Program-made: the position numbers and the translations under genes
Shown: one piece after another, positions 3,247 to 44,535 of the stretch
Numbering within the stretch: position 1 is the stretch's first letter
Layout: each line of letters begins with the position of its first letter
The notes under the pieces: model-generated
Told to the model about the DNA's origin: nothing
The model's database searches: none
What the model saw: only the letters and a program-made list of their open reading frames with translations
Assembly: GCA_023386955.1 (NCBI GenBank)
Contig: JAEWIS010000002.1
Location: 1 to 44,535, forward strand
DNA length: 44,535 nucleotides
Reading direction: 5' to 3'
From: Bacillota bacterium
GTDB lineage: Bacteria > Bacillota > Bacilli > Paenibacillales > NBRC-103111

Positions 3247-3927
3247 TTACAGCAGCAGCGGAACGATCCAGGGGGCGGTGCACAGGGTGAAGAAGGCGGT
3301 GAGAATCATCGCCACAGTGGAGACGGAGCCGGAGGCGGAGCTCAGCTCGAAGGCCTTGCTGGTGCCGACGGCGTGGGCGCTGGTGCCCAGCAGAACCCCA
3401 TGAGATACATCGTTCTTAAAGCGGAAGAACCGGATGACCACCGGTCCCAGCACCATACCCAGAACCCCTGTAGCCAGCACGAATACGGCCGTGATGGCGG
3501 GAATGCCGCCGATAAGCCCCGAAACCACTACGGCGATGGGGGTGGTGGCGGAGCGGGGGGCGATGCTGTCGATAATCGCCAGGTCCAGGTGCAGCATTTT
3601 GGCGGCCCAGGCAGTGCTCACAATGGCTACGGTAGACCCGGTAAGCACACTAATCAGAATAGACAGGGCGTGCTTCTTCATCACATGGCGGTTCTTGTAT
3701 AAGGGAACGGCCAGCGCCACGGTGGCGGGACCGATCATATTGCTTATGTAGCGGGTGCCCTCATGGTACGTATTGTAGGGGATATCCGCGAAGGCCAGCA
3801 CCACGATTACCAGAAGCGGGGTGAGAATAACCGGGGTGTAGAGCACCCGCTTATGGGATTTATAAAAGGTCTTGGTGCCGAAGTAAACCAGCACGGTTAA
3901 GATAAAGCAGCTAATTCCCAGAATCAC
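3247..3927 (-). CDS. cidB: CidB/LrgB family membrane protein
   Basis: A 226-aa polytopic membrane protein of the LrgB/CidB family, partner of the CidA/LrgA holin-like protein; the pair influences murein hydrolase activity, lysis and, in some species, pyruvate or glycolate transport. Family signatures are NMIGPATVALAVPLYKNR, SIAPRSATTPIAVVVSGLIGG and GTSAHAVGTSKAFE. It starts at a GTG that overlaps the cidA stop by 4 bp (GTGA), with AAGGGAAG upstream, so the two are translationally coupled. cid versus lrg cannot be settled from sequence alone; the divergent LysR regulator is the usual arrangement for cid. Confidence 0.88.
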   Translation of the reverse strand: MILGISCFILTVLVYFGTKTFYKSHKRVLYTPVILTPLLVIVVLAFADIPYNTYHEGTRYISNMIGPATVALAVPLYKNRHVMKKHALSILISVLTGSTVAIVSTAWAAKMLHLDLAIIDSIAPRSATTPIAVVVSGLIGGIPAITAVFVLATGVLGMVLGPVVIRFFRFKNDVSHGVLLGTSAHAVGTSKAFELSSASGSVSTVAMILTAFFTLCTAPWIVPLLL

Positions 3928-4295
3928 GACTGTCGCTTCCCTTCATGGGTCGACAGCTTCTCGGCAATCAAACCCGTTATGACCATGACACACAGAATGC
4001 TGAACACAATAACTAATGCGATTCGCAGGCCATTTTGCAGCATCAAATCTTTGTATTCTACAATGCCTACAACCGGAGGGATGAAAAACAGCAGCATCTC
4101 GGCCAACAGCCATTTGGAGCCCAGGTCCACCCATTCCAGCTTGATCACCTTAAAATGTAATAGCGCAAACAGCAGCACAATTCCTACAATGCTTCCCGGA
4201 ACCGGCAGATGAAGCGCGGACGTGACGGCGTTGATCAGCATGGAATACAGAATGAAGCAAACCACCTGGCCGAACCCCCGTAATAATGGCTTCAT
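3924..4295 (-). CDS. cidA: CidA/LrgA family holin-like protein
   Basis: A 123-aa protein with about four membrane helices and the CidA/LrgA signatures LPVPGSIVGIVLLFALL and WLLAEMLLFFIPPVVGIVEY. Members are thought to form holin-like membrane oligomers. The ATG at 4295 is chosen because AAGGAGG lies just upstream; a longer reading frame reaches 4373 but would add a polar N-terminal stretch not typical of the family. First gene of a two-gene operon with cidB, divergent from a LysR regulator across about 100 bp, so the regulator probably controls it from that gap. Confidence 0.88.
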   Translation of the reverse strand: MKPLLRGFGQVVCFILYSMLINAVTSALHLPVPGSIVGIVLLFALLHFKVIKLEWVDLGSKWLLAEMLLFFIPPVVGIVEYKDLMLQNGLRIALVIVFSILCVMVITGLIAEKLSTHEGKRQS

Positions 4296-4396
4296 GAAGA
4301 ATCCCTCCTTTTGAAAGTGTACATCATGTGCTTTCATTGGTAAAATGAATGAATCGAATGATTTCCATTCCATTTAGCTATAGTTGGAGGGCGCCT

Positions 4397-5287
4397 ATGG
4401 ATATCCGTCATATGCAGTATGTATTGGAGCTTGCCCGCAGCGGAAGCTTTACCCGGGCGGCCCAGACGCTTCATATTACCCAGCCTACCCTGAGCAAGGC
4501 CATCAAGAGCCTCGAAGAGGAGCTGGGTGTGGAGCTGTTCAAGCGCGACGGCAAACGTATCGAGCTGACAGACGCGGGCAGAGCTATCACCGGACAGGCT
4601 CATAATATCACTGAGGCCTTCCATAATCTCACCCTGGAGCTGGAGGATCTCACCAATCTGAACAAGGGTGTGATCCGGATCGGCATTCCTCCAATGGCAG
4701 GCTCCAGCTTTTTTCCTCAGGTGCTGAGGCAGTTCCGTCAAAAATATCCCGGTCTGGTGATTCAAATGGTGGAAGACGGGGCAAAGAAGCTAGAGACCAA
4801 AGTGGCGGAGGGCAAGCTGGATGTGGGCGTGGTCCTGCTGCCCGTGGATGGGGAGCGGTTTGATTCCTTCACGGTGGTCAAGGAGCGGTTGAAGGTGATT
4901 GTGCATACGGGCCATCCCCTGGCAGATAGCGGCACAGTGCAGCTACGGAAGCTGGCGGAGGAGCCGTTTATTCTGTTCAAGGAGGAGTTCGCCCTCCATG
5001 ACCGGATTATTGCGGAATGCCACAGAGTCGGCTTCCGTCCCAATGTCCAGTATGAAAGCTCCCAGTGGGATTTCATCTATGAGCTGGCGGCGGCGGGGCT
5101 GGGGGTGGCGATGCTGCCGGAGACCATCTGCCGCTCTCTGGACACGAGCAGGGTGGCGGTGTTGGATCTGGTGGAGCCGCAAATTCCGTGGCATCTGGGG
5201 ATGATCTGGGGCAAAAAGAGCTACCTGCCTCTAGCCGCCCGGGAGTGGGTGCGGTTTACCGGGGGGATATTTAACTCCCAAAGGTGA
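4397..5287 (+). CDS. LysR family transcriptional regulator (CidR-like)
   Basis: A 296-aa LysR-type regulator: N-terminal winged HTH (residues about 1-60, GSFTRAAQTLHITQPTLSKAIKSL split as helix-turn-helix) and a periplasmic-binding-protein-like effector domain (about 90-290). The ATG at 4397 follows GGAGG and gives the standard LysR start MDIRHMQYVLELA; an upstream in-frame ATG at 4349 would overlap the regulatory gap. Its divergent position to cidAB makes it the likely cid regulator (CidR in staphylococci responds to acetate/pyruvate metabolism), an inference from arrangement rather than from effector residues. Confidence 0.9.
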   Translation: MDIRHMQYVLELARSGSFTRAAQTLHITQPTLSKAIKSLEEELGVELFKRDGKRIELTDAGRAITGQAHNITEAFHNLTLELEDLTNLNKGVIRIGIPPMAGSSFFPQVLRQFRQKYPGLVIQMVEDGAKKLETKVAEGKLDVGVVLLPVDGERFDSFTVVKERLKVIVHTGHPLADSGTVQLRKLAEEPFILFKEEFALHDRIIAECHRVGFRPNVQYESSQWDFIYELAAAGLGVAMLPETICRSLDTSRVAVLDLVEPQIPWHLGMIWGKKSYLPLAAREWVRFTGGIFNSQR

Positions 5288-5330
5288 AGAGAAGCGCTGA
5301 AGCATATTCCGAATACTTTTGGGGGAGCCC

Positions 5331-5361
5331 AAAAACAAAAAGCCCGGGAAGCCCCGGGCTT
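5331..5361 (-). terminator. Terminator of the dehydrogenase-PilZ gene
   Basis: Read on the minus strand, AAGCCCGGGG pairs with CCCGGGCTT and is followed by TTTTGTTTTT. It lies 34 bp beyond the stop of the minus-strand gene, in the convergent gap with the LysR gene. Confidence 0.85.
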
Positions 5362-5394
5362 GCGTGTAGCGCAGGCTGCGGGGCAGCTCCCGCT

Positions 5395-6645
5395 TTAGCC
5401 TTCGTGCCGCTTGATATATTGCTCCAGCTTGATCCGGGTGTACGGCGGCAATCCCGACAGCATACAGCCGTAGCGGAATTCCCCTTCCCGCGAATCGATG
5501 CGGATGATCTTGCCGGTGATCGGGGGCAGATCGGCTTCCTTGGGGAAGTGGATCACCACGAACATGTCCTGGGCCAGCGGGAAGGCCGAGCTGATTTGCA
5601 GTCCGCTTTCCGACAGGTCGTGGAGGATTCCTTCGATGTTCTGTCCCGAAAAGCTGCCCTCCTGCTCCCATTGGTACACGGACAGATGCAGCTTGATGCC
5701 TAGGCTGATCCGGTTGGCACCGCGGCGCTCCTTGTCTGCCGGCGCTGTCCTTTCGCCCGAGGGGGTAATGGTGAGCTTCATCCAGTCCTCGTAGCATTGG
5801 ATCACGGAGGAGAGGTCCTGATCCCCTAATCCCTTGGCCAGGCCCATCTGAAAAATGGACGTAGCCGCATGGAGCAGAGGCGCAGGAAGCTGGAAGCCTG
5901 CCGTCAGCTTTTGGGCCAGGAGCAGATCCTTCAGCATCAGGGCCGTGGAGAACTGGTTGGAGAAGTCCCGCTGGATGATCTTGTTGCCCTTCAGCTCCGC
6001 CTGCCGGCTGTTGGCACCGCCTGCGGTTACAATCTCCAGGAACTTCTCCGGGGAAAGCCCCGCTTTGGCGGCAATGGAGAAACCCTCCATCAAGCCGATA
6101 GCGTTGATACCCACGATGGTATTGTGGGCCAGCTTGGCATAGGAGCCGGAGCCGCTGTCGCCCATGTACAGGCACTTGCTGCCCAGCACCTCGAACAGGT
6201 CCAGATTCTCCTCGTAGACGGCTTCCTCGCCGCCCACCATAAAGACCAGCGTGCCGCTCTCTGCGGCGGGTTTGCTGCCTGTTACAGGCGCATCCAGGAA
6301 GAAGGCCTGCTGTGCCTTCAGCTCCTCTGCGATCCTCTGGCTGGTGGCGGGAGATACGGTGCTGCAGTCAATCACGGTAAGGCCCGGACGGGAGCCCTCG
6401 AGAATACCCCCCGGCCCGTACACCACCTCCAGCAAAGCATCATCATTGCTCACATTGGTAAAAATCACATCCGCCTGGCGGGCAGCCTCAGCCGGAGTGG
6501 CCGCTTCCAACGCGCCAAGCGCTTTCAATTGCTCCCGCTTGGCAGCCGTGCGGTTATAACCGTATACCGTATATCCGCTTTTGAGCAGATTGACAGCCAT
6601 GGGCATTCCCATGGTGCCAAGTCCGATAAAACCGATGGTTTTCAT
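5395..6645 (-). CDS. Beta-hydroxyacid dehydrogenase fused to a PilZ domain
   Basis: A 416-aa two-domain protein. Residues 1-290 form a complete 3-hydroxyisobutyrate dehydrogenase-like enzyme: Rossmann motif GLGTMG (8-13), substrate loop DAPVTGSKPAAESGT (from about 118) and catalytic lysine K171 in AKLAHN. After a short polar linker (about 295-305), residues 306-413 form a PilZ domain with the c-di-GMP motif RxxxR (R308-R312) and DxSxxG (D343, S345, G348), ending in GKIIRI, YGCML and KLEQYIKR. Ordinary family members stop near 290-300 aa. The reading frame is uninterrupted from one domain to the other, so this is a genuine fusion in this sequence. The ATG at 6645 follows AGAGGTG; a GTG 9 bp upstream is less likely. 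Substrate is unknown. Inference: a cytosolic oxidoreductase controlled or positioned by cyclic-di-GMP. Confidence 0.92.
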   Translation of the reverse strand: MKTIGFIGLGTMGMPMAVNLLKSGYTVYGYNRTAAKREQLKALGALEAATPAEAARQADVIFTNVSNDDALLEVVYGPGGILEGSRPGLTVIDCSTVSPATSQRIAEELKAQQAFFLDAPVTGSKPAAESGTLVFMVGGEEAVYEENLDLFEVLGSKCLYMGDSGSGSYAKLAHNTIVGINAIGLMEGFSIAAKAGLSPEKFLEIVTAGGANSRQAELKGNKIIQRDFSNQFSTALMLKDLLLAQKLTAGFQLPAPLLHAATSIFQMGLAKGLGDQDLSSVIQCYEDWMKLTITPSGERTAPADKERRGANRISLGIKLHLSVYQWEQEGSFSGQNIEGILHDLSESGLQISSAFPLAQDMFVVIHFPKEADLPPITGKIIRIDSREGEFRYGCMLSGLPPYTRIKLEQYIKRHEG

Positions 6646-6703
6646 CCAAGTCACCTCTTGTCCTTATCTTACCATGCGCCCGGAAGTATGTGAAAGACCT
6701 TAC

Positions 6704-6732
6704 TTGCAATTCGGGCATTGAATAAGTATTCT
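6704..6732 (+). promoter_or_regulatory. Possible sigma-A promoter for pgi
   Basis: TTGCAA (6704-6709) and TATTCT (6727-6732) are separated by exactly 17 bp, each matching consensus at four of six positions. It lies about 115 bp upstream of the pgi start and downstream of the divergent dehydrogenase-PilZ start. Confidence 0.45.
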
Positions 6733-6846
6733 TATCATAGACACCAGATATATGCAGGTAAACCTTCCCCCAAAAGTGAAAATGCTCTGAAGCAATGGAG
6801 GGTACTTTTGAGGGAGCCCCCAATTGGATAAGGAGGTTTTTGACCC

Positions 6847-8196
6847 ATGAGCGGAAAATTGCAGTTTGATTTCAGCAAAGCACTGGGCTTTATCGGCAAG
6901 CATGAGGTGGACAACCTGGCAGGCGCCATCAAGGCCGCCCACGATGATCTTCATAACGGAACAGGTGCAGGCTCGGATTATCTGGGCTGGATCGATCTTC
7001 CGGTAAATTATGACCGGGCGGAGTTTGACCGGATCAAGAAGGCAGCGGAAAAAATCCAGTCGGATTCGGACGCGCTGGTTGTTATCGGCATCGGCGGTTC
7101 CTACCTGGGAGCCCGGGCGGCTATCGAAATGCTGACCCATTCCTTCTATAATATTCTTCCGAAGGACAAGCGCAAAACCCCCGAGATTTATTTCGTCGGC
7201 AATAATATCAGTTCTACATATACCTCCCATCTGCTGCAGCTTTTGGATGGCAAGGACATCTCCGTGAACGTCATCTCCAAGTCCGGCACCACTACGGAGC
7301 CGGCTATCGCCTTCCGGATTTTCCGGGAGCTCCTGGAGCGCAAGTACGGCAAGGAAGGCGCCCAAAAGCGGATCTACGCCACCACCGACAAGGCCCGCGG
7401 CGCCTTGAAGAAGCTGGCCTCCGAGGAAGGCTACGAAACCTTCGTGATTCCGGATGATGTAGGCGGACGTTACTCCGTATTGACCCCTGTTGGCCTCTTG
7501 CCCATCGCCGTAGCCGGCGTGGATATCGATGCTATGATGCAGGGTGCGGCGGATGCCAGAACCGATTACTCCAGCCCGTCCGTAGCAGAAAATGAAGCCT
7601 ACCAATACGCGGCTGTGCGCAACGCCTTGTACCGCAAGGGCAAAACCACCGAAATCCTGGTGAACTACGAGCCTTCTCTGCACTTTGTGTCCGAGTGGTG
7701 GAAGCAGCTCTTCGGCGAAAGCGAAGGCAAGGACAACAAGGGGATTTACCCATCCTCCGTCGACTTCTCTACAGACCTGCACTCCATGGGCCAATTCATC
7801 CAGGAGGGCAACCGCAACCTGTTCGAAACGGTCATTCAGGTGGCTGAAGTGCCGTACCATCTGACCATCGGAACCGATCCGACAGATCTGGACGGACTGA
7901 ATTTCCTGAGCGGCAAAACCATGGATTTCGTCAACAAAAAGGCGTTCCTGGGTACGCTTCTGGCCCACAGCGACGGCGGCGTGCCGAATCTGGTGGTGAC
8001 CCTGCCGGATATGTCCCCGTACACCTTCGGCTATATGGTCTATTTCTTCGAGAAGGCCTGCGGCGTGAGCGGATACCTCTCCGGCGTGAATCCGTTTGAC
8101 CAGCCGGGTGTGGAAGCGTACAAGAAGAATATGTTTGCACTCCTGGGCAAACCTGGCTTCGAGCAGGAAAAGGAAGAGCTGGAGAAGCGCCTGTAA
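6847..8196 (+). CDS. pgi: Glucose-6-phosphate isomerase
   Basis: A 449-aa phosphoglucose isomerase, the cytosolic enzyme interconverting glucose 6-phosphate and fructose 6-phosphate. Signatures in order: [16 protein letters not shown] (sugar-phosphate binding), [36 protein letters not shown], the catalytic region [11 protein letters not shown], and a C-terminal [12 protein letters not shown] with LLGKPGF. Length equals the Bacillus enzyme (about 450 aa). A strong AAGGAGG sits upstream of ATG. Monocistronic: promoter-like hexamers precede it and a hairpin follows. Confidence 0.97.
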
Positions 8197-10062: not shown

Positions 10063-10360
10063 CCCGCACCCTGCGTCCCGCATTCGAGTACCGGACTCCG
10101 CCCTCCAGCATCCCGCGTCCCAGGCTCCGCACCCCGCACCCTGTACTGCGCACCCTGTACTCCGCACCCTGTACTTCGCACCCTGCGTCAGCAGCCCGCA
10201 CACACCGCACCCTGGACTCCAGCATTCGCAACCCAGGCTCCAGTATCCCGCACACCGCACCCTGCGTCCGCAGTCTGGATTCCAGCATCCCGCACACAGC
10301 AGCCTGCACTCCAACATCCCGCACTCCAGTATCCGCAACCCGGACTCCAGTATCCCGAGC
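10063..10360. repeat. Decayed short tandem array, core unit CGCACCCTGTACTC
   Basis: From 10135 to 10190 four perfectly phased 14-bp units occur (10135, 10149, 10163, 10177), of which the first three differ only in the last base. On both sides the same vocabulary (CCCGCA, CACCCTG, GACTCCAG, ATCCCG) continues with slips and substitutions to give about 300 bp of one-sided pyrimidine-biased sequence. This looks like a microsatellite-type array that expanded and then decayed by slippage and mutation. Confidence 0.75.
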
Positions 10361-26999: not shown

Positions 27000-27138
27000 G
27001 TGCTATTAAGAAGAAGCGCCCGCTTCTCACCTGACCGACAGAGCGTTGGCTGGTTCTAGTCACTTAAGTGAACGCTTAGCAGTGTTGCTTATGACGCGAG
27101 ATCAGGATGTGGGCGGTTAGTGCCTGCATCCTTTTTTT
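27000..27138 (+). promoter_or_regulatory. L20-type leader with attenuator terminator, infC operon
   Basis: The leader RNA before infC folds into several stems and ends in an intrinsic terminator: AGGATG (27104-27109) and CATCCT (27127-27132), with an inner GGC/GCC pairing, followed by seven T residues (27132-27138). This terminator lies about 40 bp before the infC start, so it must be conditional. In Bacillus, ribosomal protein L20, the last product of the operon, binds a leader of this layout and promotes termination. Position and layout match; the L20-binding fold itself was not verified. Confidence 0.75.
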
Positions 27139-27180
27139 AGGTTCAAGGTACAGGTGAGAAACTAGTGGAGGTGGAACGTT

Positions 27181-32751: not shown

Positions 32752-33780
32752 ATGTATCCAAAAGAGCTTTCCTACACCATGCCCCCCGAGTGGGCTGAAC
32801 ATAGCGGCACATTTATCTCCTGGCCTGTCCGGGACTCCATGGTATACCCCGAGGATTATGAGGACGTATGCCTCGGCTATGAACAAATTATCCGGGCCAT
32901 CGCCGAATTTGAGCCGGTGACCGTGGTGGTGAATCCGGGAGATGAAGCCATGGTGCGCTCCAGACTGGCTGGAGTTCGGGCGGAATGTCTGCCTATTGCC
33001 CACAATGACGCCTGGCTCCGCGACAACGGCCCCACCTTCCTTGCGGATAAAGCCGGGAAGCTGGGAGCCGTCAACTGGGGCTTCAATGCCTGGGGCGGCA
33101 AATACGAGCCTTGGGATTTGGATGACGCAGTAGCTCCGGCCATTATCGCCCATACGGGAGTCCGGCAGTTTGATGCCCCAATTGTGATGGAGGGCGGCTC
33201 CATCCACACCGACGGGGAAGGCACCATCCTTACTACCGAGGAGTGTCTGCTGAATCCCAACCGCAACCCGGATCTGACCCGGGAACAGATCGAGGAAGAG
33301 CTGAAGCGCCATACCGGCACAGAAAAGGTGATCTGGCTCAAACGCGGCTTAAGCGGCGACGAAACCGACGGGCATGTAGATAATATTGCCTGCTTCGCGG
33401 CACCCGGCAAGGTCATTCTTCAGGTGTCCGGTGAACCGGGAGACGAGAACACGGATATTACCCGGGAGAATATCGGAATTCTTTCCGCAGCGGTAGATGC
33501 CAAGGGCCGCCCACTGGAGGTTATCCGGATTCAGCAGCCTCCGTACAGGGAGTACAATGGAAAACGCTTGACCCTGAGCTATCTGAATTTCTATTTTGTC
33601 AACGGCGGTATTATTCTGCCTGTATTCGGCGCAGACGCGGCGGAGACGGACCGCCTGGCGGAGGAGACGCTGGCGCGTACCTTCCCCGGACGACGCATCC
33701 GTACCGTAGATGGTATGGCGATTATTAAGGAGGGTGGAAACGTGCACTGCACCACCCAGCAGATGCCTGCGGCACAATAA
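32752..33780 (+). CDS. aguA: Agmatine deiminase
   Basis: A 342-aa pentein-fold enzyme converting agmatine to N-carbamoylputrescine and ammonia. Family motifs in order: MPPEWAEHSGTFISWP, NDAWLRDNGPTF, VMEGGSIHTDGEGT, GDETDGHVDN and, at the C-terminus, KEGGNVHCTTQQMP with nucleophile C333. Length agrees with bacterial AguA (about 340-370). GAGGGA precedes the ATG. Followed after 50 bp by aguB, the next enzyme, so the pair forms an operon for the agmatine-to-putrescine route. Confidence 0.96.
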   Translation: MYPKELSYTMPPEWAEHSGTFISWPVRDSMVYPEDYEDVCLGYEQIIRAIAEFEPVTVVVNPGDEAMVRSRLAGVRAECLPIAHNDAWLRDNGPTFLADKAGKLGAVNWGFNAWGGKYEPWDLDDAVAPAIIAHTGVRQFDAPIVMEGGSIHTDGEGTILTTEECLLNPNRNPDLTREQIEEELKRHTGTEKVIWLKRGLSGDETDGHVDNIACFAAPGKVILQVSGEPGDENTDITRENIGILSAAVDAKGRPLEVIRIQQPPYREYNGKRLTLSYLNFYFVNGGIILPVFGADAAETDRLAEETLARTFPGRRIRTVDGMAIIKEGGNVHCTTQQMPAAQ

Positions 33781-33830
33781 ATGCTTACGATCCAGTTTTG
33801 CTTCCCGCAAAACCTTCAGGAGGGACAATC

Positions 33831-34709
33831 ATGAGAAAAGTTACCGTAGCGGCTACCCAAATGAGCTGTACGTCCGATATCGAAGAGAACATCCGCCGGG
33901 CGGATAAGCTGGTCCGGGAGGCTGCGGCCAAAGGGGCACAGATCATCCTGCTTCAGGAGCTGTTTGAGACACCGTATTTTTGCCAGAAGGAAAAGTCCGA
34001 CTATTACGTTTATGCCAGAGAGCTGGAGGAAAACAAAGCGGTCGCCCACTTCCGGGAAGTGGCCCGTGAGCTGCAGGTTGTGCTGCCCATTAGCTTCTAT
34101 GAAAAGAAAAATTACGCCCGCTACAATTCTCTTGCCGTTATTGATGCGGACGGCTCTGTGCTGGGCATCTACCGCAAAAGCCATATCCCCGACGGCCCTG
34201 GCTACGAGGAGAAGTTCTATTTTAACCCGGGGGATACCGGCTTTAAGGTCTGGAAAACCCGCTATGCCAAAATCGGCGTCGGCGTCTGCTGGGATCAATG
34301 GTATCCCGAAGCGGCCCGCTGCATGGCACTTATGGGAGCGGAGCTTCTGTTCTACCCCACTGCCATCGGATCGGAGCCCCAGGACGGAACCATCGACTCC
34401 CGCGACCATTGGCAGATGTGCATGCTGGGGCATGCAGCCTGCAATTTGATGCCTGTCATCGCCTCCAATCGGATCGGTCTGGAATCCGATTGCGACTCCA
34501 GCATCACCTTCTATGGCTCCTCCTTCATTGCCGGACCCACCGGTCAGAAGGTTGCAGAAGCCGGGAGGGAGGAGGAGGCCGTCCTCACCGCGGAGTTTGA
34601 TCTGGATCAATTGGAAACCCAACGGATCGAATGGGGGATATTCCGTGACCGCCGCCCGGACCTGTACCGTGCAATTGCTACGTATGATGGAAGTACCCCT
34701 ATTGGCTGA
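33831..34709 (+). CDS. aguB: N-carbamoylputrescine amidase
   Basis: A 292-aa nitrilase-superfamily enzyme that hydrolyses N-carbamoylputrescine to putrescine, CO2 and ammonia. The catalytic triad is E43 (LLQELF), K116 (YRKSHIPDGPGYEEKFYFNP) and C153 (GVCWDQWYPEAARCMAL). The context after aguA supports this over other carbon-nitrogen hydrolases. The ATG at 33831 follows AGGAGG; the in-frame upstream codon at 33798 is not supported by such a site. A terminator follows, closing the aguAB operon. Confidence 0.95.
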   Translation: MRKVTVAATQMSCTSDIEENIRRADKLVREAAAKGAQIILLQELFETPYFCQKEKSDYYVYARELEENKAVAHFREVARELQVVLPISFYEKKNYARYNSLAVIDADGSVLGIYRKSHIPDGPGYEEKFYFNPGDTGFKVWKTRYAKIGVGVCWDQWYPEAARCMALMGAELLFYPTAIGSEPQDGTIDSRDHWQMCMLGHAACNLMPVIASNRIGLESDCDSSITFYGSSFIAGPTGQKVAEAGREEEAVLTAEFDLDQLETQRIEWGIFRDRRPDLYRAIATYDGSTPIG

Positions 34710-34965: not shown

Positions 34966-37900
34966 ATGCCAGGATTCCGCCAACCATACTTGCGAAGATT
35001 GATGCTGCTTTTCCTGATTTTGGCCGCCGCCGCCGGGTTAGCTCCCATAACTGCCCGCGGTGAAGAAAAGCTGACAGCCCCGCCGAAAGTTCTCATTCTG
35101 AACTCCTATCACAAAGGCTTCGAATGGTCGGACGAAGAAACGGCAGGAGTAACGGAAGCCCTGAAGAAGGCTGACCTTCATCCGGTAATCTATACCGAAT
35201 ATGCAGACTGGAAGAGGTTTCCCTCAGATTTTAACCGGGAAAACCTGTTTTCCACCCTGCTCTACAAATATTCGGGAACCGATATTGATCTGATTGTGGC
35301 ACTTGATGATTTCGCGGTGGATTTTGCCCTGCAATTCCGCAAGAGCCTGTTCAACAATGCGCCGGTGGTCTATGCCGGAATTGTGGAAGGGGCTTCAGAT
35401 AATCTGCTTTATGGACAAACTAACATAACTGGTGTTTTGGAAAATGTGGACCCCGTCCCCACTATCCAGTCAGCCTTGGCGGTGAATCCCGACATCTCCA
35501 ACGTCTACTTGCTGCATGACCGCTCCGAAAGCGGAGAGATGACAGGCAGGCAGATTCAAGAGAGGATCCGGGCAACGTATCCGGAGCTTGCCATCGTCCC
35601 TCTGGACGGCAAAACCTTCCCCCAGGTGCTGGAGCTGGCGAAGGGGCTGGACCCGGAGCGGGATATGGTTCTGATGACCACCTATTTCAGCGACGTCACC
35701 GGCAGTACCGTGGAATTCGAAACGGCGGCAAAGGAATTGGGCAGGACCAGCAAAGCCCCGGTTTATCACCTGTATGATTTTGGCATCCGCTACGACGGCT
35801 TCGGCGGAAGCACCATCAGCGGACGCACCCAAGGCGAGAAGGCTGCAGAATTAGCCCTGCGGTTACTTAAAGGGGAACGGGCCGATGATATACCCCGGGT
35901 GAAGCCCGAACAATTTACCACTACCTTCAATTATGACATGATGAAGAAGTTCGGTGTCGGAGAAGAAAGCCTTCCCAAGGACAGCATCATTCTGAACAAG
36001 CCGTTCTCCTTCTATGACGAATACCGGAACCTTGTGCTGGGTGTGCTTTGGTCGTTTGCGGTGCTTGTAGGTTTTATCCTCCTGCTTCTTATACATATCC
36101 GGCAGATTCGCCAGATGCGCCGCAGATTGGCAAGCAGCAACACGGAGCTGACCATGCTCAACCACAACCTGGAGGCCTCTGAAGAGGTGCTCCGCCGCCA
36201 GTACAAGGAGCTGTCCTCCGTCAAGGAGAGTTTATTTGTCAGCGAGGAGCGGTTCAGGCTGGCCACCGACGGCTCGGACGCCGTTATATGGGACTTGGAC
36301 TTGGAGAAGGGGCATTCCTATTATTCGGACCGGTGGTACGAGCTGATGGGCTACCCCAAGGATCTGTACATAACCTGTGATGACGGCTGGAAGCAGATGA
36401 TTCATTCCGAGGATGTAATCGAAGCGGAGCGGGCCATGCAGGCTCATCTGAACGGGGAAACCCCCTTTTATTCCACGGAATACCGGATGCGCAAGCAATC
36501 GGGAGAGGATATCTGGTTCCAGGTGCGCGGTAAGGTGAGCCGGGGAAATGCGGGGGAACCGAAGCGTTTTGCCGGATCGATGACCGACATCACGGAACGC
36601 AAAAGCTATGAAGTGATGCTTCAAAAAAGCTATCAGGAACTGGAGGCAACTTACGAAGAATTGACTGCTCTTCAGGATGAGTTGATGGAGCAGTATGACC
36701 GGCTGGTGGAGAATCAGACGATGCTCACCAGAAGCGAGGAGCGTTACCGGCTGATAACCGAAGCCACCAATGACGGAATCTGGGAGATCGACTACATTAC
36801 TAAGGAAACATTCATTTCCCAAAGATGGTGGGATCTGCTGAAGGTGGAGCCGTCGCGGAGAGTGAAGGATTTTTCCTTTGCGGAAATGATCCATCCGGAG
36901 GATCTGGCAGGTTACCAGCACTGTATTGAGGAGCATAAAACAGGCAAAAACGACTTTTATCAATATGAATACCGCTTGAGGCTGGGAACCGGGGAATACC
37001 GCTGGTTTCTGGGCAAAGGCAAGGCCATCCGGGATAAGAACGGACAGATTATGCGGGTGGTGGGCGCAGATTCGGATATCCATGATCTGAAAACCTCACA
37101 GAATAAGCTGCATGAGCTGGCATATTTTGATCCTCTTACCGGTCTTCCCAACCGGCTTTCCCTGACTGTGGAGCTGGAGCGTTATGTGAAGGCGCCTGAG
37201 GCTTGCGCGGTTATCTTCTATATGGATATCGATAATTTCAAGTATATCAACGACACCATGGGCTATTCCGTTGGGGATGAGCTGATTCAGCTGATCAGCC
37301 GGCGGCTGGAATCCTTTGACGGAGTGGAGGGGATCTTCTACCGTCTTGGCGGGGACGAATTCGTGATGCTCCACGAGGGCTTCCAATCCCCTGAAGCTGT
37401 TGCCCGGACGGCGGATCAGCTGATACGCTGGCTGAAGGAGCCGTTCCTGGTTGGAGGCAGCGTCATCCATCTGGCCCCCAGCATCGGGATTGTCCGGTAT
37501 CCGGAGGATGGCCAGTCTGCGGAGGAGCTCCTGATGTTTGCCGATGTGGCCATGTACAAAGCCAAGGAAACCTGCAAGGGCGGCTACATTGTGTATGGGG
37601 CGACTTTGCAGCAATCCTTTGCCAAACGGATGGAAATTGAGCGGCATCTGCGCAATGCTCTGCAGAACGGGGAGCTGGAGCTGCATTACCAGCCTCAATA
37701 TGAGCTCCAAAGCAACGAGGTATCGGGATTCGAGGCGTTGATCCGCTGGAGCAATCCGGTTCTGGGCAATGTGTCGCCGTTGTCCTTCATTCCCATTGCG
37801 GAGGCCTGCCAGCTGATCCTTCCCATTGGAGCGTGGGTACTGGTCAAGGCCTGCCGGTTCATCCGGGAGCTGCAGCGGCGGGACGGGAAGCCATACCGGA

Positions 37901-38436
37901 TATCTGTGAATATCTCCGTGGTGCAGCTGGTACAGGATGATTTCATCAGCACGGTGCTGGAGTCCCTGAAGGAGGCCGATCTGGCCCCGGAATATCTGGA
38001 AATTGAAATTACCGAGTCCATCTTCATGGAATCCTTCGAGCGAATCGTGGAGAAGCTGGACTACCTGAAATCTCTGGGGCTCCGTATTGCACTGGATGAC
38101 TTCGGAACGGGATACTCCTCTCTCAGCTACCTCAAGGCCCTTCCGATCACTACCTTGAAGGTGGACAAAACCTTCATTGACGACGTACCCAGCGCACCGG
38201 AGAGCCGCTCTCTGGCCAGCTCCATCGTCATGATCGGCCACCGGATGGGACTGGAGGTTATTGCCGAAGGTGTGGAATCCCGGGAGCAGCTGCAGTATTT
38301 GCGGAGCCGGAAATGCGACAAAATCCAGGGATACTTTATCAGCAAACCCCTGCCTGAGCATGCGATTCTCGGATGGCTGAAGGAAACAGCCGCGGCGCAG
38401 GAACACTCCGATACTCCTCCGAATTCTGAAGCATAG
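34966..38436 (+). CDS. Membrane cyclic-di-GMP enzyme: sensor-PAS-PAS-GGDEF-EAL
   Basis: A 1156-aa sensor protein. Residues about 10-31 form a signal peptide or anchor; 40-345 are an extracytoplasmic ABC-substrate-binding-like domain (KVLILNSYHKGFEWSDEE); 355-378 a membrane helix; then coiled coil, PAS (about 426-545), PAS with PAC-type ending (about 590-705), GGDEF (about 710-885) and EAL (about 888-1140). The synthesis motif is intact, GGDEF at 795-799, but the RxxD inhibitory site five residues before it is absent (GVEG). The phosphodiesterase motifs are also intact: EALIRW (923), NISVVQL, ITES, DDFGTGYSS (D1044-D1045), KVDKTF, EGVES and QGYFISKPL. It may therefore make or degrade cyclic-di-GMP depending on ligand. 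AGGAGAGG precedes the ATG. Single-gene unit with terminator. Confidence 0.95.
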   Translation: MPGFRQPYLRRLMLLFLILAAAAGLAPITARGEEKLTAPPKVLILNSYHKGFEWSDEETAGVTEALKKADLHPVIYTEYADWKRFPSDFNRENLFSTLLYKYSGTDIDLIVALDDFAVDFALQFRKSLFNNAPVVYAGIVEGASDNLLYGQTNITGVLENVDPVPTIQSALAVNPDISNVYLLHDRSESGEMTGRQIQERIRATYPELAIVPLDGKTFPQVLELAKGLDPERDMVLMTTYFSDVTGSTVEFETAAKELGRTSKAPVYHLYDFGIRYDGFGGSTISGRTQGEKAAELALRLLKGERADDIPRVKPEQFTTTFNYDMMKKFGVGEESLPKDSIILNKPFSFYDEYRNLVLGVLWSFAVLVGFILLLLIHIRQIRQMRRRLASSNTELTMLNHNLEASEEVLRRQYKELSSVKESLFVSEERFRLATDGSDAVIWDLDLEKGHSYYSDRWYELMGYPKDLYITCDDGWKQMIHSEDVIEAERAMQAHLNGETPFYSTEYRMRKQSGEDIWFQVRGKVSRGNAGEPKRFAGSMTDITERKSYEVMLQKSYQELEATYEELTALQDELMEQYDRLVENQTMLTRSEERYRLITEATNDGIWEIDYITKETFISQRWWDLLKVEPSRRVKDFSFAEMIHPEDLAGYQHCIEEHKTGKNDFYQYEYRLRLGTGEYRWFLGKGKAIRDKNGQIMRVVGADSDIHDLKTSQNKLHELAYFDPLTGLPNRLSLTVELERYVKAPEACAVIFYMDIDNFKYINDTMGYSVGDELIQLISRRLESFDGVEGIFYRLGGDEFVMLHEGFQSPEAVARTADQLIRWLKEPFLVGGSVIHLAPSIGIVRYPEDGQSAEELLMFADVAMYKAKETCKGGYIVYGATLQQSFAKRMEIERHLRNALQNGELELHYQPQYELQSNEVSGFEALIRWSNPVLGNVSPLSFIPIAEACQLILPIGAWVLVKACRFIRELQRRDGKPYRISVNISVVQLVQDDFISTVLESLKEADLAPEYLEIEITESIFMESFERIVEKLDYLKSLGLRIALDDFGTGYSSLSYLKALPITTLKVDKTFIDDVPSAPESRSLASSIVMIGHRMGLEVIAEGVESREQLQYLRSRKCDKIQGYFISKPLPEHAILGWLKETAAAQEHSDTPPNSEA

Positions 38437-44413: not shown

Positions 44414-44535
44414 TTTATGGAGAGTTTGATCCTGGCTCAGGACGAACGCTGGCGGCGTGCCTAATACATGCAAGTCGAGCGGGTTTGTCCCTTCGGGGAC
44501 AAGCTAGCGGCGGACGGGTGAGTAACACGTAGGTA
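44414..44535 (+). rRNA. 16S ribosomal RNA, 5' end (truncated by window edge)
   Basis: The sequence GAGAGTTTGATCCTGGCTCA and the following GACGAACGCTGGCGGCGTGC are the universal 16S start; GCGGACGGGTGAGTAACACG is also present. Only about 122 nt are inside the window. The V1 hairpin is the compact TTGTCCC-TTCG-GGGACAA form. The 5' boundary is set by similarity to Bacillus 16S and may be off by a few bases. It is presumably the first gene of a full rrn operon continuing to the right. Confidence 0.98.

Follow-up and report, generated by a model that had tools for sequence, protein, structure and literature searches.

Known PilZ–enzyme systems and the locus described here

The joining of a PilZ domain, a type of receptor for cyclic di-GMP (c-di-GMP), to an enzyme is an established principle (PMC10333796), of which BcsA is an example. 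The gene described here lies in a stretch of 44,535 nucleotides from a Paenibacillales genome (contig JAEWIS010000002.1; the whole stretch is referred to as the window) and encodes a beta-hydroxyacid dehydrogenase fused to a C-terminal PilZ domain. The cellulose synthase BcsA likewise consists of a catalytic domain followed by a C-terminal PilZ, and the fusion shares this BcsA-type architecture, with PilZ and a catalytic domain on one chain; however, BcsA is a membrane glycosyltransferase making exopolysaccharide, whereas the fusion, judging by its relatives, is a soluble metabolic oxidoreductase.

A PrsW-type protease fused to PilZ, LIC_20173 of Leptospira interrogans, resembles the dehydrogenase fusion in being an unusual enzyme–PilZ chain of recent description that, in the available text, is known through sequence and modelling (PMC12943098); it is, however, a membrane protease and not a metabolic dehydrogenase. 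In Streptomyces venezuelae, the abstract of PMC9530166 reports that c-di-GMP binding is necessary for the activity of GlgX, which is comparable in being an enzyme of carbon metabolism; however, GlgX is a glycogen-debranching enzyme, and the abstract names no PilZ domain. Relatives of the enzyme itself are devoid of PilZ: the solved structures 3pef, 1vpd, 3cky, 3pdu, and 3doj have the same fold, and 33 unfused syntenic orthologs have both the same fold and the same chromosomal place, as marked by pgi. PilZ proteins of the MotI/YcgR type have no enzyme part. They act in motility according to the available sections of a review (PMC12564702), in contrast to the dehydrogenase-bearing fusion, and when those sections and the available sections of PMC10519070 name PilZ outputs, they deal chiefly with motility, pili, signaling, and the synthesis of exopolysaccharide. 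The word “dehydrogenase” is absent from the main text of both reviews.

A description of a dehydrogenase–PilZ fusion was not found in the literature searched, including the available portions of PMC12943098, PMC10519070, PMC12564702, and PMC10333796; a mention in the review of PilZ architectures by Galperin and Chou (2020) is possible. An earlier reading of this DNA, made from the sequence only, knew of no characterised example of direct coupling to an oxidoreductase, in agreement with the literature searched; PilZ–enzyme fusion as such is already known. The dehydrogenase–PilZ architecture is also already visible in the domain columns of databases; as far as the literature searched shows, the novelty lies in the kind of enzyme, a metabolic dehydrogenase.

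The fusion gene and its distribution

The gene runs without interruption from an ATG at 6645 to a stop codon at 5395–5397 and encodes 416 aa. Its parts, with the basis of each assignment, are as follows:

5395..6645 (-), beta-hydroxyacid dehydrogenase–linker–PilZ fusion gene, 416 aa (open frame, Pfam domains, orthologs)
5767..6645 (-), dehydrogenase part, residues 1–293, NAD_binding_2 and NAD_binding_11 (Pfam, fold)
6607..6624 (-), dinucleotide-binding GLGTMG, residues 8–13 (conserved motif)
6121..6135 (-), K171 and N175 (conservation)
5731..5766 (-), variable linker, residues 294–305 (span variation, low model confidence)
5398..5730 (-), PilZ part, residues 306–416 (Pfam, fold comparison)
5710..5724 (-), RxxxR motif, R308–R312 (both Arg in 73/73 fused loci and in 132/132 sequences of a wider alignment)
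5602..5619 (-), DxSxxG motif, D343–G348 (D, S, and G in 73/73 fused loci)

The sequence-only reading had described a single unbroken 416-aa frame with GLGTMG at 8–13, K171, R308, R312, D343, S345, and G348; the coordinates, the reading frame, and every named residue proved correct. Pfam recognized NAD_binding_2 (residues 3–162, E 3.9e-49), NAD_binding_11 (165–284, E 7.4e-28), and PilZ (331–412, E 4.3e-10), all exceeding the curated cut-offs, and the three domains were present in 50/50 members of alignment A1.

A frameshift or assembly error at about 5730, named by the same reading as a possible objection, was not found. The loci L001 and L002 (96 and 94% identical) are open across this point, and of 392 Paenibacillales genomes at least 107 contain matches to both parts that reach query residue 411 or beyond with no inner stops (counted from the matches listed at E 2e-102 or better; one of them is G041). 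Thus, the fusion is genuine, not an assembly error, and the domain pair for which a search among relatives had been suggested is kept in many members of the order. A protein search keyed to PilZ returned 224 proteins; among the best 120 of these, all three domains were assigned to 119 in the precomputed Pfam column, the exception being a 280-aa piece, P0113. Among the hosts recorded for these proteins are Paenibacillus contaminans, P. mucilaginosus, P. ehimensis, P. swuensis, Gorillibacterium, Gordoniibacillus, and Ferviditalea, and further fused loci were seen in Cohnella panacarvi and C. cholangitidis. According to the listing for the family of genome G007 (n = 104), 81 genomes have both parts (a figure that takes in G041, with its broken start), another 12 contain an unfused ortholog that is at least 55% identical, and the remaining 11 gave weaker matches or nothing. 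No fusion was seen beyond Paenibacillales in two overlapping samples of 398 genomes each, one from the class and one from the phylum (matches listed at E 1e-70 or better), where the full-length matches, 2 and 1, respectively, all belong to the order. A plasmid search matched 2220 records; among the best 10, four cover at least 80% of the query, including H6 (27%) and H7 (30%).

In genome G041 (locus L108) the frame is broken near the start of the dehydrogenase, so that the match begins at residue 54, and no further break interrupts the fusion; the interruption may be a sequencing error or recent decay. In public databases, 37 records (P0121–P0157) also give the PilZ part as a short protein of its own. 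Ten of them lie letter-for-letter within longer fused proteins or frames (nine complete, and P0122 within the start-less G041 frame), five more have their final 60 residues or more in common with fused frames, and the other 22 fall outside both groups. At loci L109, L029, L044, L046, and L111 the longer frame is open through both domains despite short PilZ records. Such records are likely to be annotation fragments that hide the fusion.

The ratio of nonsynonymous to synonymous substitution rates (dN/dS) was calculated for 15 hand-picked pairs. For the PilZ part it was 0.016–0.100 in nine pairs, 0 in two, and undefined in two, with one pair each at 0.137 and 0.658 (the latter at a dS of 0.025); for the dehydrogenase part it was 0.033–0.249 in 14 pairs and undefined in one. 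Purifying selection thus acts on both parts, about equally strongly, in most pairs.

The dehydrogenase part

The N-terminal part has the features of the beta-hydroxyacid dehydrogenase superfamily, namely NAD_binding_2 with NAD_binding_11, a GxGxxG-type motif, and the Lys and Asn residues that are catalytic in this family. G8, G10, and G13 are kept in 72/73 fused loci, the remaining locus having a gap; K171 is intact in 73/73 and N175 in 72/73, each in 132/132 of the wider alignment, and K239 and D240 in 73/73. K171 and N175 are presumably the catalytic residues. In a Foldseek comparison the modelled part matched 1vpd and 3pef with template modelling (TM) scores of 0.96–0.97 by target length; 3cky, 3pdu, and 3doj are further solved relatives, and N-PAC (2uyy), a protein of the same fold, was among the matches.

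Judging by its active-site residues, this part appears to be a catalytically complete beta-hydroxyacid dehydrogenase. The label “3-hydroxyisobutyrate-dehydrogenase-like” given to it earlier is apt for the superfamily but not for the specific enzyme: the NCBIfam model HIBADH (TIGR01692) gave 200.8 bits against a cut-off of 291.6. The model for 2-hydroxy-3-oxopropionate (tartronate semialdehyde) reductase, NF008592, scored highest among the 17 NCBIfam models listed and was likewise rejected (237.2 bits, cut-off 397). No substrate assignment was reached through family models and closest structures; the enzyme may be classed as a small-semialdehyde reductase or a 3-hydroxy-acid dehydrogenase. The motif N-R-T/S serves as a rule for preference of reduced nicotinamide adenine dinucleotide phosphate (NADPH). 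Since N31-R32-T/S33 is present, the dehydrogenase is probably NADPH-linked.

The PilZ part

Both parts of the c-di-GMP signature read earlier from the sequence, RxxxR and DxSxxG, are present and invariant in 73/73 fused loci, and the five motif residues are intact together with K171 in all of them. In the wider alignment, D of the second motif is found in 131/132 sequences (one has N) and S and G in 132/132. The modelled PilZ part resembles solved PilZ domains in Foldseek, in a ranking where unrelated folds are intermixed from rank 15. The fold assignment rests on this structure comparison because a search of the PDB with the PilZ profile found no sequence relatives at E 1.

The first PilZ hairpin (residues 322–339, window 5629–5682), outside the ligand motif, is almost invariant: W326 and Q335 are kept in 72/73 fused loci and G330, F332, and G334 in 73/73, with low model confidence at 328–331. 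It is possibly a protein contact site.

Fused and unfused orthologs

The conserved neighbor of the fusion is the gene for phosphoglucose isomerase, upstream on the opposite strand:

6847..8196 (+), pgi, conserved divergent neighbor (Pfam PGI, E 1.6e-23)

Divergent pgi was found in 71/73 fused loci (at L102 and L104 it was not found within the sequence stretch examined) and in 33/35 unfused loci, L127 and L128, both homologs from the outgroup, being the exceptions. Both forms of the gene are therefore orthologs that occupy a single chromosomal place. Of the 73 fused loci, examined over stretches of differing lengths, 41 contain yigZ, 49 ppnP, and 52 tkt; neighbor names are based on the Pfam families PGI, UPF0029, Ppnp, transketolase, and TetR. 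In the window, L001, and L002, a LysR regulator gene divergent to lrgA–lrgB (window 3247–5287) lies between the fusion and ppnP; it is also beside the fusion in L003, and since the other fused loci showed no such gene there, it is a clade-specific insertion.

A maximum-likelihood tree built from dehydrogenase-part sequences comprised 130 tips (72 fused, 33 unfused syntenic, and 25 homologs from elsewhere). Sixteen unfused homologs were sister to an orthogroup with a fused base, within which the unfused genes formed five separate clades of 20, 1, 1, 4, and 7 tips. Parsimony with equal costs gave six changes, one PilZ gain and five losses, against nine losses with a fused root and 14 events with gains only; these numbers depend on several deep nodes with support of 37–71. 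In an earlier 117-tip tree, the long branch L105 had six homologs from elsewhere next to it, and the addition of outgroups in the 130-tip tree separated them from it. A single ancestry of the fusion with repeated loss of PilZ, about five times, is supported by this tree with its weak deep nodes.

The PilZ fragment is present as one copy in each of 44 fused genomes. Its transfer to another gene in unfused genomes was rejected, a related fragment being found in 0/32 at E 1e-5, and no PilZ remnant was detected at the 32 unfused loci covered, L139 being left out (best tblastn E 1.5). Among 85 conserved dehydrogenase columns compared between fused and unfused forms, none was altered in more than one unfused clade; changes confined to one clade affected 7, 3, and 1 columns, and two of the clades concerned consist of one sequence each. 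Because about five losses of PilZ occurred with no shared change at conserved positions, the dehydrogenase is probably active without PilZ, which would be an added switch.

Cyclic di-GMP signaling genes

The window also holds the c-di-GMP synthesis/degradation protein that the sequence-only reading had pointed out:

34966..38436 (+), PAS-GGDEF-EAL protein, c-di-GMP turnover (domains; not adjacent to the fusion, and with no operon link to it)

No c-di-GMP riboswitch was found in the window at the gathering score. GGDEF domains (E 1e-10) were present in 74/74 fused genomes (5 to 39 each, median 20.5) and in 32/33 unfused genomes (median 12). In five sister comparisons the unfused side was lower in GGDEF count in 5/5 and per megabase (Mb) in 4/5, with two unfused and two fused sides being single genomes and 2/4 fused sister tips examined for the G120 clade. 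The family also includes eleven genomes that yielded no ortholog, and these carry 2 to 32 GGDEF domains each; therefore, cyclase number is not predictive of loss of the whole gene. Only one of the 118 genomes examined had no GGDEF domain, the unfused G010 of 2.4 Mb. Its unfused dehydrogenase (locus L060) is still next to pgi, and the genome may be incomplete.

Proposed mechanism and alternatives

The conservation of the two parts in combination suggests that a lifestyle signal directly controls an enzyme of basic metabolism. We lean toward the reading that c-di-GMP modulates the attached dehydrogenase, making it a signal-responsive metabolic enzyme, which would involve ligand binding, docking, and a change in activity. 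The PilZ barrel would be tethered by a floppy linker leading directly into the RxxxR arm; with rising c-di-GMP the arm would close on the barrel around the ligand, so that the tether becomes shorter and stiffer and the barrel is seated differently on the enzyme oligomer. By analogy with PilZ on the catalytic part of BcsA, the altered seating could switch catalysis, either by activation or by inhibition. PilZ would modulate a self-sufficient enzyme, because no conserved dehydrogenase position is altered in two or more PilZ-less clades. Its conserved placement back to back with pgi may connect the enzyme with the balance of sugar phosphates or of NADPH.

Several observations weigh against this reading. 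The span between W288 and R308 varies from 16 to 40 residues across the 73 fused loci, and the full-length model has a predicted TM score (pTM) of 0.70 with a predicted local distance difference test (pLDDT) below 50 at residues 299–311; fixed docking is therefore not predicted. No co-adapted dehydrogenase surface for PilZ docking was detected in the 85 conserved columns, and PilZ is dispensable, judging by its losses. The fused/unfused contrast in GGDEF domains (Mann–Whitney, p 9e-7 for the counts and 7e-5 for the counts per Mb) is uncorrected for phylogeny, and since 32/33 unfused genomes retain GGDEF, the absence of PilZ is not accounted for by a lost signal.

The principal rival, unlikely in our view but to be taken seriously, is that PilZ binds c-di-GMP and brings the dehydrogenase to a partner, such as an exopolysaccharide machine, the flagellar motor, or the membrane, leaving catalysis unaltered. 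The flexible and variable linker (16–40 residues; pLDDT below 50 at 299–311) would suit such targeting, the available text on YcgR-like PilZ proteins has them working through partner proteins (PMC12564702), and the near-invariant hairpin 322–339, unexplained by the ligand motif, suggests a protein contact. However, the neighbors searched for, pgi, yigZ, ppnP, and tkt, are the same in unfused loci, and no partner gene specific to the fusion was seen.

It is improbable that the dehydrogenase fold merely oligomerises to display several PilZ domains, with catalysis irrelevant to signaling. Beta-hydroxyacid dehydrogenases do form oligomers, and N-PAC (2uyy) has a non-catalytic role; however, K171, K239, and D240 (73/73), N175 (72/73), and the dinucleotide motif are intact, and the dehydrogenase alone was kept after PilZ loss in the 33 unfused syntenic loci. 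Improbable, too, is a PilZ that no longer binds ligand and is carried along passively; its repeated loss shows it to be dispensable, but all five ligand residues are invariant, and in most pairs selection on PilZ is about as strong as on the enzyme. A merger of two genes by frameshift or assembly error, suggested by PilZ-only database records and the G041 frame break, is refuted by the both-part matches in at least 107/392 genomes and by the 10/37 short records contained in longer fused frames, and can be dismissed.

Other features of the window

Signals around the fusion gene are the following:

6651..6658 (-), Shine-Dalgarno-like AGAGGTGA, 5 nt upstream of ATG 6645 (sequence reading)
6666..6694 (-), promoter-like TTCACA-17-TAAGAT, with TG preceding the second hexamer (consensus match only)
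5340..5361 (-), terminator-like hairpin directly past the stop codon of the fusion gene (consensus match only)

A GTG at 6654, three codons 5′ of ATG 6645, falls within the Shine-Dalgarno-like element, and ATG 6645 is therefore the likely translation start. Two promoter-like sites were found in 5250–6860 (mean of shuffles 0.6), and three terminator-like sites in the region (mean of shuffles 1.8), among them hairpin 5361–5340 with nine pairs, seven of them GC. These consensus-only sites suggest that the fusion gene may be a single-gene unit.

Elsewhere, imperfect tandem repeats with units of 14, 15, and 21 bases lie at window 10134–10355, flanked by a TetR gene and by what we take to be a radical SAM gene; the long open frames there look spurious. 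An agmatine-deiminase-like (PAD_porph) gene adjoins a carbon-nitrogen hydrolase gene at 32752–34709, the usual pair for conversion of agmatine to putrescine. A ribosomal protein L20 leader scored marginally over the gathering score at 27002–27143, and the 5′ end of a 16S ribosomal RNA gene lies at the window edge (44414–44535).

Implications

If control by c-di-GMP is true, direct metabolic control in Gram-positive soil bacteria could be tested on one purified protein, and the parallel losses of PilZ provide controls at hand, namely receptor-bearing and receptor-less orthologs in the same neighborhood. The broader proposition, to which we give an even chance, is that in a large part of Paenibacillales c-di-GMP directly gates a hydroxyacid or semialdehyde reductase, putatively NADPH-linked, encoded back to back with pgi, and that lineages with fewer diguanylate cyclases dropped the PilZ domain about five times. 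If true, the switched and unswitched orthologs would form a natural comparison set, and the signal governing the sessile/motile state would be hard-wired to redox or carbonyl metabolism in these bacteria.
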